Of a DNA stretch of 64,000 bases, positions 53,707 to 64,000 are shown in pieces. Positions within the stretch are counted from its first letter, which is position 1. Each line of letters begins with the position of its first letter. Origin of the DNA: Spirochaetes bacterium GWB1_60_80 (GTDB lineage Bacteria; Spirochaetota; Spirochaetia; Treponematales; UBA12059); NCBI GenBank assembly GCA_001829185.1, contig MIAR01000046.1:1-64000 (forward strand), in the 5' to 3' direction. The position numbers were made by a program, and so were the translations under genes. The notes beneath the pieces are model-generated. The model was not told the DNA's origin. It did not search any database and worked only from the letters and a program-made list of their open reading frames with translations.

Positions 53707-55326
53707 GTGAATCCCGAAAAGCCCCTGCCCGTCGATACCGGCAGGGGCTTTTCTGTCAATTATCGGCAGCGCTGGCTCTATTCCCGCCATGATCCAACCA
53801 GCCTGGCACTGTTGAATTGCCAGGCCGCGCCAATACACGAAGATACCCTCTACTTGGTTTGCTCACCGTGCCTCTGCTATGGCCTGACCGCGTTGGCGCA
53901 GCGCTTACCGGCCGGTTCCGCCATCGTTACCATAGAAACAGATGAACAATTGATGCGCCTGAGCCTGGAAACCAGCCAGGATTGGCGCGATAGCTATCCG
54001 ACTATTCATTTCCTGCGCAGCGTCGACCCGACGGCCATCATCAATCACGTAGATAGCCTTAGTAGTTTCAAGCGCATCATACCGGTTTCCATCTCGGCCG
54101 GCCGACAGTTGGACGAAGAAACCTACGATCGTATCGAAAAGGACTTAGCCCTCCACCTGGCCACCCGGACCCGCAACCGCATCGCCAGCGTGCGGATGGG
54201 GCGCTTGTGGCTCAAGAATATCTTTGCCAACCTCGGCGGCCTGGACTGGTCTCGGGTCAGTGATCCGCCGCGCGATTCGCGGCCGGTGCTAGTGGCCGGC
54301 GCCGGGCCATCGCTGCAGGCCAGCTTGCCCTTTATCCGGGAAAATAGAGCCGGCCTGCATGTTATGGCCTGCGATACGGCTATCGGCTGCCTGGTCCAGG
54401 CCGGCATTATGCCCGATTCGCTGGTCTGCCTGGAAGGGCAGATCCATAATATCCACGATTTCCTGCCCTTAAATCGCCGCCCGGTGCACGCGTTTGTCGA
54501 TCTGTCGGCCCATCCGGCCAGCTTCCACACCCTGGGTGGGCCATGTACCGTGCTGCTCAGCCGCTGGACGGAGAATAGCCTGATCGGACGCCTGACGGAC
54601 GGTGGCCTGCCGATCTGGCCCGTGCCGGCCCTCGGCTCGGTTGGCGTGTTGGCCATCCATCTAGCCGGCCGGTTTCTAGCGGGCGATATTTATATAACCG
54701 GTCTTGATTTTGCCTTTCCGCCTGGCCTGACCCACTGCCCGGGCAGCCCGGTCAGCTATTTTGAGAAAGCCCGCGAGAGCCGCCTGGATCGGCAGCGTTA
54801 TTCTTGGCGGAACAACTGGCGCCAGGATACCTTCTGTGCCGGCAGGGGATTGCGGAGTACGCCGGTACTGGAAATGTATGCCGCTAGTGCCCGTGAATTG
54901 CTGACGGACTTACAGACCGGTGAGCGGCCACGCCGCCTATTTGACCTCCGGGCCTCGAGAGGCCTGGACCTCGGCTTGAACCTCGGCCAGGACGTTCCCG
55001 CCCCCAGTCATGAGGCACTGAAGTGCCCTGTTCAGGACAGCGGTGTTACCCCCGAGGCCGGTGGGGCCGGGCTTGAGGCGGCCGCCTTGGCCCGCTTCCT
55101 GGTGGCGCAGGAAGCGGACCGTATCGACCAGCTGCGGCGGATTCTACAAGGCGAAGCCCCGGCGGCGGCCTTGCCCGGCTTGCTACTGGAACTCGATTAC
55201 TTGTATAGCCATTTCCCGGACGCGGAGCGCGTTGGCGGCCTGCACCTGGACGCGCTGCGGCGGTTGGCGCTGGAAGCCCGCTACTGGCTGGGCCGACTGG
55301 ATTGGGCCGGCCGGTCAACTACCTGA
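53707..55326 (+). CDS. Maf-like DUF115 glycosyltransferase (copy 1)
   Basis: A 539-residue protein of the Maf/DUF115 group. The core motif VLVAGAGPSLQASLPFIREN is followed by VMACDTAIGCLVQAGIMPDSLVCLEGQ (in parts) and a GSVGVLAIHLAGRFLAGDIYITGLDFAF region. Maf proteins are linked to transfer of nonulosonic acids onto flagellin in other bacteria. The GTG at 53707 has a weak SD, and its first codons contain the terminator hairpin of the previous gene. It is one of three such genes in the window. Confidence 0.82.
   Translation: MNPEKPLPVDTGRGFSVNYRQRWLYSRHDPTSLALLNCQAAPIHEDTLYLVCSPCLCYGLTALAQRLPAGSAIVTIETDEQLMRLSLETSQDWRDSYPTIHFLRSVDPTAIINHVDSLSSFKRIIPVSISAGRQLDEETYDRIEKDLALHLATRTRNRIASVRMGRLWLKNIFANLGGLDWSRVSDPPRDSRPVLVAGAGPSLQASLPFIRENRAGLHVMACDTAIGCLVQAGIMPDSLVCLEGQIHNIHDFLPLNRRPVHAFVDLSAHPASFHTLGGPCTVLLSRWTENSLIGRLTDGGLPIWPVPALGSVGVLAIHLAGRFLAGDIYITGLDFAFPPGLTHCPGSPVSYFEKARESRLDRQRYSWRNNWRQDTFCAGRGLRSTPVLEMYAASARELLTDLQTGERPRRLFDLRASRGLDLGLNLGQDVPAPSHEALKCPVQDSGVTPEAGGAGLEAAALARFLVAQEADRIDQLRRILQGEAPAAALPGLLLELDYLYSHFPDAERVGGLHLDALRRLALEARYWLGRLDWAGRSTT
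53716..53753 (+). terminator. Terminator hairpin inside the first codons of the Maf-like gene
   Basis: GAAAAGCCCCTGCC (53716-53729) and its complement (53740-53753) form a perfect 14 bp stem followed by TTTTCTGTC. It looks like the intrinsic terminator of the PpiC-like gene but lies within the reading frame of the next gene. Confidence 0.65.
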
Positions 55327-57901: not shown

Positions 57902-60544
57902 ATGCAGAACAAGAACCCGAACGGACCGGACAAAGCACTACCCTCGACCGAGAAGGACCTCGAACAATACGGTGTTTGGGTGAAGGCCGAACCGCAGGAC
58001 ATTGTGGAAGAACCGGATACCGAACAGGCCACCCTTGATGAAATCGATACGCTAGATATAGACGATATTGACCTGGGCGCCGAAACTATGGACGATATTA
58101 TGCTCTCGATGGATGACGAAAGCAGTCTTGACAGCCTTCCCGGTCACGTTACCGACGATTCGGAAAAGTCGCCTGAGGATTATGACGAATTGGTCATCGA
58201 AGACCTGGCCGCTGAACCGGCCAGCGAGGTCGACACCAGCAGCTACGACTTGCCAAGCCAGAGTGACTATGAACTGGTACCGTCGCTGCCCGCGGACGAT
58301 ACTGCCGACCTGGCAATCGACGACCTGAGTATTGATGACCTTGACAGGGCAGAAGCGTCCGAAAGCAATGACCAGTTCGAATTAGCCGCCTTCAAGGATG
58401 ATCTGGCTCCTGTCGCAGAGTTGGAAGAGGATACAGATTTTCTGGATAGTCTCGATACCCCCCCGCCGCCCTCAGCCCAAGACAAATTTACGCAACCCGA
58501 CCTTAGCCATGACGACACTATCGACATCCCCCTGGAAGATCTCGATTATGACGCGCCGGTTGTCCGGAGCACAGCGGCCAGCGAAGAGTATTCCCCCGCG
58601 CCGGTAGCCAGCAGTAATTTGGATATGGATGAAATTTCACTGGATGAATTCGGCCTTTCCGGCGAGACTGAAGACGGCCCGGAGGCAGATAGCCGCGCCA
58701 GCCGGTCGCTTAAAGCGTCTGGTCAAAATTTTACCGTTGAAGTAGATGCCACCGATGATTTTATGCCCACTGTGCTGGGCGCTGCCGATAGCGATATTTC
58801 CTTGGCGGATACCCTTGACGATGGCCCCGACAGCGGCGACAAAGGCGAATTCCTTGAACCAATCGACCTGGATCTCCACTTTGACGACACTATTCCGAGT
58901 CTCGGCGACGAAAAGAAAAGCGATGAGATTGATTTCAATTTGGACACGATCGAAGATATGTCAGCCGCTAACAACTCTGTCTCGGAGGCCTTCAATGCTG
59001 ACGATCTCCTGGCTGATGTCTTCGAAGAAACCCCTGCCAATCTTTCGTCCCCTCCCCCCAGGAAGGTAGCGGCTTCAAAAGGGCAGGACGCGGGTGATGA
59101 CATTATGCTTGATTTTTCGGCTCCCGAAAAGCCCGACATACCTATTCCGGGCCAGAATCGTCCCAAGGCGGCGGCTGATGAGCGGCGGAGTCAACCAAAC
59201 ACCGCTCCCGCAGTACCGTCATTCAATGACCTGGAAGCGTTGGAAAAAGATCTCGAGTCAGATGCCAGCCCGAATCCTGTCACACCCGAAGCTGTTGGGG
59301 AACCGGCCTCGGCCAAGCTGCTGACGCAGATCGCCAATGAGCTTTCCTCCATAAAGTCTGAATTGATGAGCCTGCGTTCTCAACTGAATGCCATAAAATC
59401 AACCGAGGCTCAACCGCCCGCCAGTCTTGGTGCGGGAAGCGGATTGGTCGACGCTGCCGATGGTTCCGATGCGGCCAAGGGTGGCTTCTTTGACGATGAA
59501 GACGACGAGACGATTGCCCTGACCGGTGATGAACTTGATAACATCCTGAATACGGCGGATTTTACCGAAGAAACCTTGATTGAAGAATCGGTTGAAGACG
59601 GCGCTGACACCATGATGGCGGTCAGCGGCGACCTTTTACCAGAGGATGGCGATTATTCGTCCCCCACCGCCGGAATTGAAACCATTAACCTGGACGGGGA
59701 GGAGGCGACCGAATCCTCTACCGCTGCCAACGGTCTGGAGTCTGACGCCCTGGAAATCGTCGATGGCATAACGCCCTTGGCGGAAGCGCCGGAAGATACC
59801 AGCTACCTGGAAGCCGATATTGAAGCCTATCCGCTGGATGATACGCCACTTGAAGAACCGGATCTCTCTGAGATCAGCTATGATGAACTCCTGGTTGAAG
59901 CAACCGCGGCCGAAGAGTTGGCCAGCCTAACTCAAGCCGGCGCGACCGACAAGCCAGACCCATCTAGTGACGAGCAGATTGAAGAGCTTGAATATCTCGA
60001 CAATGAAGGCTTCGCCGATTTTGATGAAGAAATAGCTTTCGAGGAAGATATAAGCCTCAATATCGAAGCTGAGGAAGGCCTCACGGGTCAGCTGCCCATT
60101 GAGCCGGAATCCATCCCGGAACTCGAGGATGATTTTGATCTGGAAACTGAGGAATCGAGCGAAATCACCCTGCACGAAGAGCCTGCACTGGTTCGTAGCA
60201 GCCCAGCCGATCAGCCAAAACCGGTAGAGCCAGTCAGTATCCATCCCGATGAACTAAGCATGAGTTTGGACGATAATCTCTTCGTCGACAACGAAGCGTC
60301 CGCGATTCCCGCGCCAGTGGATGCCAAGGAAAATCCGGCCGCTAGTCCCGCGCCAGCCACCCCGGACTTGGGCATTCCGGCGCATCCGTCCGTCCCGGAC
60401 AAGCTGTCGCATGATGTCAAATCGGTCCTGGTATATCTTGACCAGTTACTGTCTGCCCTGCCCGAGGATAAAATCGAAGAGTTCGCGGCGTCCGAATACT
60501 ATGATACCTACAAAAAACTGTTTGAGGAGTTAGGAATCCTGTAA
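57902..60544 (+). CDS. Large acidic, low-complexity treponemal protein, 880 residues
   Basis: An extremely Asp/Glu-rich protein. The conserved start (EKDLEQYGVWVKAEPQDIVEE) is followed by ~430 residues of disordered acidic sequence. A coiled coil lies at about 470-500 (LTQIANELSSIKSELMSL), then more acidic sequence, ending in a folded ~50-residue C-terminal domain (LSHDVKSVLVYLDQLLSALPE). No signal peptide or membrane segment. Family members are treponemal and unnamed to my knowledge. The stop overlaps the ATG of the next gene (TAATG), so the two are coupled. A scaffold role near the cell envelope or flagella is possible but not shown. Confidence 0.7.
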   Translation: MQNKNPNGPDKALPSTEKDLEQYGVWVKAEPQDIVEEPDTEQATLDEIDTLDIDDIDLGAETMDDIMLSMDDESSLDSLPGHVTDDSEKSPEDYDELVIEDLAAEPASEVDTSSYDLPSQSDYELVPSLPADDTADLAIDDLSIDDLDRAEASESNDQFELAAFKDDLAPVAELEEDTDFLDSLDTPPPPSAQDKFTQPDLSHDDTIDIPLEDLDYDAPVVRSTAASEEYSPAPVASSNLDMDEISLDEFGLSGETEDGPEADSRASRSLKASGQNFTVEVDATDDFMPTVLGAADSDISLADTLDDGPDSGDKGEFLEPIDLDLHFDDTIPSLGDEKKSDEIDFNLDTIEDMSAANNSVSEAFNADDLLADVFEETPANLSSPPPRKVAASKGQDAGDDIMLDFSAPEKPDIPIPGQNRPKAAADERRSQPNTAPAVPSFNDLEALEKDLESDASPNPVTPEAVGEPASAKLLTQIANELSSIKSELMSLRSQLNAIKSTEAQPPASLGAGSGLVDAADGSDAAKGGFFDDEDDETIALTGDELDNILNTADFTEETLIEESVEDGADTMMAVSGDLLPEDGDYSSPTAGIETINLDGEEATESSTAANGLESDALEIVDGITPLAEAPEDTSYLEADIEAYPLDDTPLEEPDLSEISYDELLVEATAAEELASLTQAGATDKPDPSSDEQIEELEYLDNEGFADFDEEIAFEEDISLNIEAEEGLTGQLPIEPESIPELEDDFDLETEESSEITLHEEPALVRSSPADQPKPVEPVSIHPDELSMSLDDNLFVDNEASAIPAPVDAKENPAASPAPATPDLGIPAHPSVPDKLSHDVKSVLVYLDQLLSALPEDKIEEFAASEYYDTYKKLFEELGIL

Positions 60545-61754
60545 TGAGCCTATTGCAAAAAGCAGCCGAGAAACACCATATCCCATTGACCTCATCCGCC
60601 ACTGAGGCGCCAACCGGCAGCCTCTTGGCGGCGATGGAAAAAAAAAAGCCTCTAACCCCGGGGTCGAGCCGGCCCTGATTAGCCGACCCGGGTTGAGCCA
60701 GCCCGGGTCGGCCCCGCTAAACACCCACGCTGCGACCGACAAAGCGACCGCCGCCGCGCCATCCATCCATAATGCGGGCTTACTACCGTCCTTACTCGCT
60801 GCCCTGGAAGCCGTGCCAGCCGGCTTATTGTTCCCATGGGAACTTTGCCGCGCGTTTGAAGCTTCCGGCATTTTTTCAGGAATCACCCTGTATTACCCCA
60901 TAAATCAACTGATCGGGGAAGCGGTTTATCTTTCTGGCCTGAATCCCGGGCAATCGTGCCGGTTGGATGCCATGGCCGAGCGACTGCCATCCTTCGCTAT
61001 AACAGCTGTACCACTACCTGTCTTGCGGCAGTTATTCGAGTATCCAAGCCATCAAGACACGGATTGGCTGGCCGCTTTTTCAGGCGACCAGCTGGAGGAC
61101 GAAGCAGATACTGCCCCAAGCTTTATTGCCGCGCTGGCATTGCAAAGTTGGATTGGACTAGCCATCGAAAAATCTGGTTATTTTCTCTTGCTGGCTACCA
61201 AATATCTCGATTTAGCCGATTCAGCCTTCAGTGCGGCTTGCCAAGCGAAATTGGCTGGGCAAGGTGAATATGTGAGGCGCTTGCCGACCGGGCTGGTGCA
61301 GCCACGGCTGCCGCCAGCCGCCATCGCCGGCGTTCTCCGGGCTGAGGCCAGCCAGCGCCAGTCCCCCTGGGTAGCGCTCTACACGCTGTCCATGAAGCCG
61401 TTTATCAAATCCTTGACCGAGCAGTACGGCGAACGTGCCGCTAGCTGCCTGCTCAGTGAAGCCAGCCGATTGCTCGCCAGCCTGGTCCAAGTGGTCGGCC
61501 AAGTCTTTCCGCTGCCCGGGGGGCGCTTACTACTGGCCTACTACGGCCATTCCAGCACCAATCCCGAGTTGCTGTCTTTCCAGATCGTGAAAAGCTTCTT
61601 CAAGAATCTATTCGTGACGCTCCAGCGCAACGGGCAGCCGCTGCCGGATATTAATCCCAAGCTCAGCTTGCCCGAAGCCGCCGATTTCCTGGTGGTTAAC
61701 TGTCTCGACAAGGTTGATGGCACAAAACTTGACGAGCAGCTCGGGAAGCTCTGA
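60544..61754 (+). CDS. Gene split by an A10 frameshift (possible slippage gene)
   Basis: ATG 60544 overlaps the previous stop and begins M-S-L-L-Q-K-A-A-E-K-H-H, then runs 34 residues to a run of ten A (60638-60647) in ATG GAA AAA AAA AAG and stops after 13 more codons. The downstream ORF from TTG 60693 (353 residues, helical and unrecognised) is in the -1 frame and open from the A-run. Reading A-AAA-AAG with a -1 shift, or adding one A in the mRNA, joins both parts to ~402 residues. Perfect hairpin CCGACCCGGG/CCCGGGTCGG lies 35 bases downstream (60683-60711). It is either a slippage gene, a pseudogene or a base-count error. Confidence 0.7.
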
Positions 61755-61777: not shown

Positions 61778-63304
61778 ATGACCGACAGCGCGCGAGCCAG
61801 ACAGCCATGTTTTCATTCCAAGTATGCGCCCTTGAAGGAAGCTGAGCGCTTCGTGGACGCTTCATTGCAGAACAAGAAGCCGGGGACGGTGCTGCTGCTC
61901 GGACCTGGCGAAAATTATATAACAACCGTGCTTGCGGCGCGTTATCCGTGGGCGGCCATCTACTCGATCCATCCGGATGGCCAATTCTGCAAACCAGGGC
62001 TGGATCAGGCCACGGCCTGGTGGCCCCAAGCCGGCTTGACCCTGCGCAATTTTCTGCGGCGTTGCCTGTTCAACGAACAAGCCTCGGCCGGTGTAGCGGT
62101 GCTGGAATGGGAACCGGTGATGGCGACCTACCCCCAGATGGCGGCCCAGATTCGAAATGAAGTCACCAAGTCTTTGGCCAGCGCCGCCGCCGACCGGGCC
62201 ACCGTTACCTACTGGGCGGCCTCCTGGCTCAAGAACTGCCTCCATTTTGCCCGTCGACTCCGCCAGGCCACCAGCCTGAGCCAGCAATCCGGTGGCATAA
62301 TCCTGGCGGCGGCCGGACCCGGCCTCAATGACTGCCTGCCAGCGATTCGACGCAGCCGTGATCAGGCCACCGTCTGGGCTTTGTCGTCAGCGGTGCCAGC
62401 CTTGCTGACGGCTGGAATCCGGCCGGATTTCGTCATTTCGACCGATCCAGGCTATTGGAGCGGAGTTCATCTGCAGAGTAGCCGGCAACAAGGCCTACTG
62501 GTGGGCTTGCCCCCCAGTGCCTATGCCGGAACCGGCTTACTGGATTCTGGTCGACCGATCGTCCCGCTCGATACTGGTTTGCTGTTCGAGAAAACCGTCT
62601 TGCAACAACTGGGCATTACGGCCGTGCCGGCGATTGCCTTCGGTACCGCCGCCGGTACGGCGCTGAATCTAGCCTTGACCGCAAGTACCGGGCCGATTGC
62701 GGTCTGTGGCCTGGACTTTGCCGCCTATCAGACCAGGACTCACGCCAAGCCTTATGCCTTCGATAACCTGCACTTGGAACACGCCTCCAGGCTCCACCCT
62801 GGCCAAGCCAGCCTTTATGGCGAAACTATCGAACGTTATCCTGAGAAAGCTGGATCGTGGCGTTTTTCACGCGCCTTCTCGGCGTATGCCAACGAGTTGA
62901 CCATTGCACCATCCGATCTAGGGCGCGTATTCCGGTTCAGCCGTTCGCCAGTTACCAGCGCCGGCATGGCCAGTTTTCCGGTTTGCCACTTTGAAAACCT
63001 CGACTGGCCAGAAAACAGCCCACCGGAATCACCGGAAATCAAGTCGGTCAGTGGTGGAGCCGATAAAGTCGTCGGCATACTGGACGCCTTGGGTCGCCAA
63101 GCCGGGCTAGCCATCGATCAGGCCCTGGTATCTGGCAAGGCCTTTGCCTTCGATGATGCGCTCGTCCTGAAGGCCTTAGGCGGCGCCGCTGTCGCCGCTC
63201 CGCTGGCCCTCGCGGCCAGGGGACAATTGACCAGCCAGACGGCTTTGCAGGCGCGGGAAGCCATCCGGCAAGCGCTGGAAAAGTGGAGCGAACCGTGCCG
63301 TTAG
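61778..63304 (+). CDS. Maf-like DUF115 glycosyltransferase (copy 2)
   Basis: A 508-residue DUF115 protein. N-terminal SKYAPLKEAERFVDASL and VLLLGPGENYITTVLAARYP precede the core ILAAAGPGLNDCLPAIRRSRDQATVWALSSAVPALLTAGIRPDFVISTDPG (in parts) and VCGLDFAAYQ. This is the same fold and order as copy 1 at 53707, but the sequences have diverged. It follows the frameshifted gene by 23 bases and overlaps the next Maf-like gene by 10 bases, so these are an operon. Confidence 0.82.
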   Translation: MTDSARARQPCFHSKYAPLKEAERFVDASLQNKKPGTVLLLGPGENYITTVLAARYPWAAIYSIHPDGQFCKPGLDQATAWWPQAGLTLRNFLRRCLFNEQASAGVAVLEWEPVMATYPQMAAQIRNEVTKSLASAAADRATVTYWAASWLKNCLHFARRLRQATSLSQQSGGIILAAAGPGLNDCLPAIRRSRDQATVWALSSAVPALLTAGIRPDFVISTDPGYWSGVHLQSSRQQGLLVGLPPSAYAGTGLLDSGRPIVPLDTGLLFEKTVLQQLGITAVPAIAFGTAAGTALNLALTASTGPIAVCGLDFAAYQTRTHAKPYAFDNLHLEHASRLHPGQASLYGETIERYPEKAGSWRFSRAFSAYANELTIAPSDLGRVFRFSRSPVTSAGMASFPVCHFENLDWPENSPPESPEIKSVSGGADKVVGILDALGRQAGLAIDQALVSGKAFAFDDALVLKALGGAAVAAPLALAARGQLTSQTALQAREAIRQALEKWSEPCR

Positions 63305-64000
63305 CCGATTATACTATTTTTGAACGCAATATGCTGGCGCTCAGTACCTCCACTAGTTACCTGGTTACCAAACGCCTGCGCGAGGCTGTCAGTTCGGAAA
63401 ACCTGAGCTTCGAGCCAGCCCGCAGCGGCGCTCTTATACCGATTCTGTCGCGCGGCGGCCGCCAGATAGGCTTGCATTCGCGCTTTGACCCGGAAGAAGA
63501 AGGCCGCCGCATCGCCCAAGGTTTCAGTCAACGCGGATTTTATATTTTCCTCGGCCTGGGGGCCGGTTATGGCATTCAGGCCTTCTTGCAGAACGACCGT
63601 ATTTCCCGGGGCATCATCATCGATTTCGACGCCGGCTTGATCCGGAGCATCCTGGAGACTATCGACCTAACGCATATCCTGGCCGACAAGCGCCTGGAGT
63701 TTCTGGTCGATCCGACCGAGGCCGAGCTACAGGCGCTTTTCGTTTCCACCTACATACCATCCTTGTATGGCAACCTTTCGGTTGTGCCCCTACGGAGCCG
63801 CGTCGACGATAGCAACGACGTTTTCCAGGGCGCCGCCGACTGCATCAAACGTCTGATGGAAGCCGTGTCCGACGACTACTCAGTGCAGGCCTTTTTCGGT
63901 AAGCGCTGGTTTACCAACATCGTCCGGAACATGAAAAAGGCCGATGGTAACACGCCGCCGATTGGGCCGATCCATCGCGCGGCCATTACGGCAGCCGGTC
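63295..64000 (+). CDS. Maf-like DUF115 protein (copy 3), cut by window end
   Basis: An open frame from GTG 63295 (SD GGAG 7 bases before) to the window end, at least 235 residues with no stop. It shows SRFDPEEEGRRIAQGF, then IFLGLGAGYGIQAF and GIIIDFDAGLIRSIL, as in the N-terminal half of Maf proteins. The AGPS-type core motif would follow beyond the edge. It overlaps the previous gene by 10 bases. It is a partial gene and not present in full. Confidence 0.75.
   Translation, partial: MPLADYTIFERNMLALSTSTSYLVTKRLREAVSSENLSFEPARSGALIPILSRGGRQIGLHSRFDPEEEGRRIAQGFSQRGFYIFLGLGAGYGIQAFLQNDRISRGIIIDFDAGLIRSILETIDLTHILADKRLEFLVDPTEAELQALFVSTYIPSLYGNLSVVPLRSRVDDSNDVFQGAADCIKRLMEAVSDDYSVQAFFGKRWFTNIVRNMKKADGNTPPIGPIHRAAITAAG

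Follow-up and report, generated by a model that had tools for sequence, protein, structure and literature searches.

Putative programmed transcriptional slippage at a conserved A10 run in a rapidly diverging gene of a spirochaete family

The split gene and its reading frames

Does the homopolymeric run that divides a gene of Spirochaetes bacterium GWB1_60_80 between two reading frames represent an error, a decayed gene, or a means of making two proteins from one gene? The window, i.e. the entire stretch of DNA that was analyzed, comprises 64,000 nucleotides (contig MIAR01000046.1), and the features that surround the break are the following:

57902-60544, forward strand: upstream neighbor, an acidic protein of 880 residues, conserved, whose stop codon shares one base with the start codon of the split gene
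60544-60678, forward strand: 0-frame ORF of 44 residues, MSLLQKA...GSLLAAMEKKKPLTPGSSRP*, with an MGLL/MSLL start and a second GLL-type motif that are both found again in relatives
60638-60647, forward strand: A10 run, whose first A is the second base of a 0-frame codon
60648-61754, forward strand: -1-frame continuation of 368 codons and a stop, modeled as a low-confidence N-terminal part followed by a probable GGDEF-type fold without the GGDEF motif
60683-60711, forward strand: perfect hairpin of 10 base pairs with a 9-base loop, 36 nucleotides past the run and missing from some relatives
61778-63304, forward strand: downstream neighbor, an MptE-like protein (PF01973), which serves as a conserved synteny marker

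The reading frames around the run bear out the original prediction that the A10 splits a gene into 0 and -1 frames (0-frame context ATG GAA AAA AAA AAG CCT), and the N-terminal MSLLQKA part was correctly said to overlap the preceding stop, its ATG at 60544 sharing one base with a TAA. The 0-frame ORF passes through the run and ends after 44 codons at a TGA (60676-60678), somewhat short of the approximately 50 residues that had been claimed, while the -1 frame is open from 60606 to its TGA at 61752-61754. By arithmetic, the joined product would have 403 residues with 11 A's or 402 residues with 8 A's, which is near the predicted size of about 402. On the forward strand of the window runs of at least ten A's are expected about 0.06 times, and the whole genome contains five A10/T10 tracts; by itself, the presence of the A10 is a modest argument against chance.

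Evidence for coding on both sides of the run comes from substitutions counted in 12 overlapping close pairs of relatives, which are not independent of each other. Before the run, changes at codon positions 1, 2 and 3 of the 0 frame number 63, 60 and 149, and after it the corresponding counts in the shifted frame are 295, 259 and 386. By this pattern in their sequences both parts of the gene are shown to be coding, in different frames. In one relative (G007) a -1-frame TGA includes the first A of the run and a TAG of the 0 frame lies one base past it, and the shift must therefore occur within the run.

The two parts could in principle be separately initiated genes, the short ORF being a leader and the long ORF starting from an internal codon by translational coupling. 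Potential starts of this kind are seen in the window, where a TTG (60693) lies 15 codons past the run, and in G008 and G016, where a GTG or ATG lies two codons past it. However, in 11 of the 19 split copies described below the first ATG, GTG or TTG of the shifted frame lies at least 30, and up to 101, codons past the run, so that sequence common to the alignment would be lost in these copies; moreover, the orthologs from sister families are continuous. We accordingly regard separate initiation as highly improbable.

Conservation of the run and of the frame break

The original prediction had proposed that the run be looked for in relatives. Direct searches with the long ORF matched no more than 9 of 58 genomes, one of them that of the window, and gave no match in a separate collection of genome contigs; the relatives so recovered are few because the protein diverges fast. 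The locus was found instead by using the MptE-like neighbor as an anchor, in 22 of the 23 genomes sampled from the window's family (the window genome being G000); in the remaining one, G011, the search with the MptE-like protein yields only a weaker paralog. The start of the gene is readable in 20 of these genomes. In G001 the contig ends within the gene and in G021 it begins in the neighbor; the 5' ends of these two and of G011 were sought via the acidic neighbor and not found, nor was that of G001 found among that genome's own A runs, and all three are excluded from every count of the split gene.

The run is present at the orthologous place in all 20 readable members, as an A10 in 18 and an A9 in two, and is therefore not a product of chance. 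Seventeen genomes combine an A10 with a long frame at -1, and two (G020 and G017) combine an A9 with a long frame at +1. In G006 (L024) the A10 is in frame, in another codon phase, and both other frames stop within about five codons, so that two products would be expected from slippage even there, in the arrangement known from dnaX. The 5' part of the gene occurs once more in G004, on a second contig (L109, G004:C64:361-370), with an A10 and differing flanks; this copy, perhaps a strain variant, was left out of the counts.

Over the same set of genomes the downstream protein retains only 13-29% identity to that of the window, and since the run was kept at 9 or 10 A's during this divergence, selection appears to be acting on the break. 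Each of the 19 split copies has its run directly after a G or C within GAA or CAA, never as GAG or CAG, and elsewhere in the split genes the G-ending codons AAG, GAG and CAG account for 62 of 123, 148 of 335 and 90 of 129 occurrences respectively. The base 3' of the run is G in 14 copies, C in four and T in one. The longest other A run in these genes measures 2-8, at a gene GC content of 30 to 69%. A10 tracts are likewise rare in the genomes as wholes (63 listed places, some of them overlapping, across the 23 genomes), and in G003, G005, G018 and G019 the sole A10 tract on either strand is that of the split gene. Where a genome is GC-rich, its long A or T runs are, according to an earlier study, more likely to be under positive selection (PMC1088944).

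Homopolymers are prone to sequencing error and the window assembly consists of 59 contigs, which might suggest that the true run is an A11, or that the gene has decayed. Against this, 19 separate assemblies, ranging from about 10 to 550 contigs, have the same off-frame run, always with 9 or 10 A's, and the codon-position bias persists past the run, leaving error or decay a negligible chance. The split is thus confirmed as genuine rather than a sequencing artifact.

A10 tracts can also mutate by replication slippage, and the run length is off by one in two genomes; hence the gene might be toggled between cells by phase variation, with the assemblies displaying the common OFF state. This reading would, however, have to accommodate the fact that none of the 19 split copies has a joining length of 8 or 11 A's, that 17 have exactly 10, and that the length is steady despite wide divergence of the protein. 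Under free choice of frame, the probability of seeing no more than one in-frame copy among 20 is about 0.003 (binomial, kinship ignored). Phase variation is accordingly very unlikely in our estimation.

Origin of the run

For comparison with the family we assembled 33 genomes from four other families of the order, picked from MptE-like matches outside the window's family. The gene is continuous in 26 of these 33 loci, although some versions are far shorter (114-151 residues); it is absent in four and cut by contig ends in three. None of the 26 continuous genes contains a run of eight or more A's (loci L040-L047 were also checked for runs and kept out of the sister-family count). The sister families retain the neighbors and an MGLL-type start, and the five sister-family proteins that we compared have a C-terminal part in common. 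Profile comparison of the alignments A1 and A3 recovers this part with E 2.4e-12 over 127 columns, and is the clean comparison because alignment A2 includes the family member L024. Given that the sister genes are continuous, with neighbors, start and C-terminal part in common, the ancestral gene probably encoded the full protein, with the run arising in the window's family.

Transcriptional and ribosomal slippage

The recurrence of the same split in relatives whose proteins have widely diverged suggests that two proteins are probably made from one gene by purposeful slippage at the run. The comparative evidence, namely the conserved run, the conserved break and coding on both sides, supports the original prediction that programmed slippage yields a short and a long product. 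As to the agent, we infer that the polymerase rather than the ribosome slips, and consider it likely, from the sequences compared, that the A10 run is a programmed site of transcriptional slippage. RNA polymerase would stutter on the A10 and produce mRNAs with varying numbers of A's. Unslipped A10 mRNAs, and also those with A9 or A12, would give the short peptide (44 residues for A10 in the window), whereas mRNAs with A11 or A8 would provide a single frame and hence the full protein of about 403 residues, the ancestral product of the sister families. Within this operon-like cluster, in which the neighbors encoding the acidic and MptE-like proteins are unsplit, the run would presumably determine how much full protein is made relative to the short peptide.

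The main rival is programmed -1 ribosomal frameshifting at A_AAA_AAG or A_AAA_AAA, aided by a hairpin as in E. coli dnaX, on an mRNA with exactly ten A's. The dnaX-type heptamer named in the original prediction is indeed present in frame: A_AAA_AAA fits the X_XXY_YYZ pattern in all split copies, and A_AAA_AAG is found in 13 of the 17 split A10 copies. It is nevertheless not the best reading of the site, because a -1 shift would not serve the A9 copies, four of 19 copies have C and one T after the run, and the run exceeds seven A's in all of them. The two A9 copies (of 19 split) would need a +1 or -2 shift, so that the -1 direction is not conserved, and the run is held at 9-10 A's though seven would suffice; since a ribosomal heptamer needs only seven bases, such a length favors the polymerase.

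Structure past the run bears on the same question. The perfect hairpin that had been predicted exists in the window, where 60683-60692 pairs with 60702-60711, and the predicted pairing of GGGTCG with CGACCC is likewise found (60661-60666 is complementary to 60684-60689). In the family, folding is strongest in the 50 nucleotides past the run, where z averages -1.52 and falls below -2 in 7 of 20 copies, as against values near 0 in most other stretches; strong hairpins are seen in G000, G007, G003 and G008. This counts against the polymerase, because such structure would help a ribosome, as does the prevalence of A_AAA_AAG and the single in-frame copy of G006. Although enhanced on average, the downstream structure is absent in several relatives (z above 0 in 5 of 20), and its position varies, against a criterion of 5-9 nucleotides. 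Furthermore, inspection by eye of the contexts listed revealed no regular SD-like element upstream. Folding just upstream of the run is also enhanced (mean z -1.03) and may aid the polymerase, because hairpins in nascent RNA can promote its slippage (PMC5009743).

Several further observations are in line with transcriptional slippage. Genes with programmed transcriptional slippage are characterized by an uninterrupted run of about nine or more A's or T's at the frame break that is kept in orthologs, and such a run is seen in 20 of 20 readable members. The direction of the shift also varies among orthologs (17 at -1, two at +1 and one in frame, the variation amounting to three genomes), and such differing directions are given as a criterion for polymerase slippage in PMC3711429. 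Genes for both lysine tRNAs, UUU and CUU, were found (ARAGORN, 30 of 43 tRNA loci), and the presence of two lysine tRNAs, which speaks against ribosomal frameshifting, has been linked to polymerase slippage in Thermus dnaX (PMC5009743). Both A9 counts derive from fragmented assemblies (550 contigs in G017 and 180 in G020), however, and may reflect miscounting or broken alleles. Taking both sides together, transcription is more likely than the ribosome to be the site of slippage, and ribosomal frameshifting as set out above is, in our view, improbable; both processes may also act together.

Like dnaX of Thermus thermophilus (A9 slippage), the split gene has an A9-A10 run with two products, for which heterogeneous mRNA is proposed (PMC3711429, PMC5009743), as well as early stops in the other frames and two lysine tRNAs (PMC5009743). 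Whereas unslipped mRNA yields the long product in that system, it yields the short one here (19 of 20 copies), and the genes are unrelated. A parallel in layout, with an A10, a -1 shift and a long product that needs a slip, is provided by the two-ORF dnaX genes with ten A's of Chlorobium relatives and others, as described for a GeneTack cluster (PMC3711429); yet the gene is a different one, and the run here lies about 20-36 codons past the start, for which reason the short product is a peptide. Poly-A runs also join two ORFs in the unrelated magnesium chelatase genes, constructs of which shifted in E. coli at 40% with nine A's and 63% with 11 (PMC3711429). The window genome resembles E. coli dnaX in having A_AAA_AAG and a downstream hairpin, but differs in having ten A's instead of six and a G, A9 orthologs with the opposite direction, and a perfect hairpin that begins 36 nucleotides off, with structure not seen in all copies.

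A10 runs in dnaX and ftsK of the same family

The dnaX gene of G000 (L124 / L166) contains an A10 (G000:C47:34999-35008, minus strand) just past its conserved N-terminal domains, and both other frames are closed immediately. In the family, 10 of the 20 dnaX ORFs read contain an A10 and the other 10 do not. In nine of the 20 it falls between codons 400 and 488 of the ORF, and the -1 frame closes within one codon and the +1 frame within six, on account of which the gamma form is probably made by slippage at this run. The layout is that of Thermus dnaX, and we take it as further support for the polymerase as the slipping agent at the split gene. In G002 the run is at codon 556 and the stops are 34 and 17 codons distant.

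An in-frame A10 is also present in the linker of ftsK in G000 (L121 / L189; G000:C10:3488-3497). Among 21 ftsK loci, of which that of G011 was unreadable, such a linker run occurs in three of the 20 members read (A10 in G000 and G007, A11 in G001), 194-218 codons before the Walker A motif and with stops within five codons in both other frames. If this run slips, the membrane domain of FtsK would be freed without the DNA motor.

Predicted products and genomic context

Searches of Pfam and of PDB sequences with the long-ORF protein yielded no family, and a Pfam search with 21 members gave no match save one chance hit. The structural model of the shifted-frame product, built from a 21-row alignment, has a mean pLDDT of 63, with block means of 77-94 over residues 221-320. 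Its residues from about 218 to 369 match GGDEF domains, the best match having a Z of 10.6 and an rmsd of 4.3 over 141 residues, and the best Foldseek E-value to such domains is 1.6e-5. The GG(D/E)EF signature is missing; the matching stretch, placed by eye, is PLPGGRLLLAYYG in the window and variable in relatives. On the basis of this model, the long protein probably adopts a degenerate GGDEF-type fold and is predicted to be a catalytically dead signaling domain.

The short product, probably of about 30-50 residues across the family as judged from the ORFs, retains the N-terminal MGLL...GLL motifs that are also seen in sister families; its tail is unrelated from genus to genus. The peptide may have a role of its own.

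Several MptE-like or Maf-like proteins are clustered in the window (53707-55326, 61778-63304 and 63283-64000). Maf proteins are linked with flagellin glycosylation, and these neighbors may offer a hint to the pathway of the split gene.

Implications

The open-licence literature on transcriptional slippage that we searched (spirochaetes, Treponema, ftsK, diguanylate cyclase) contained no account of this case. To our knowledge, few bacterial genes have conserved programmed slippage outside insertion sequences and dnaX. For genome annotation, the finding means that gene finders blind to slippage will label split members of the family as pseudogenes or truncated ORFs. More speculatively, and with considerable doubt, the A10 runs of the family might form a set of slippage sites comprising the split gene (in all readable members), dnaX (tau/gamma) and the ftsK linker (in two genera). 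In that case polymerase slippage, under the influence for instance of nucleotide levels, would shift the long-to-short product ratios of these genes together, and the short peptide with its two GLL motifs would compete with the full protein.
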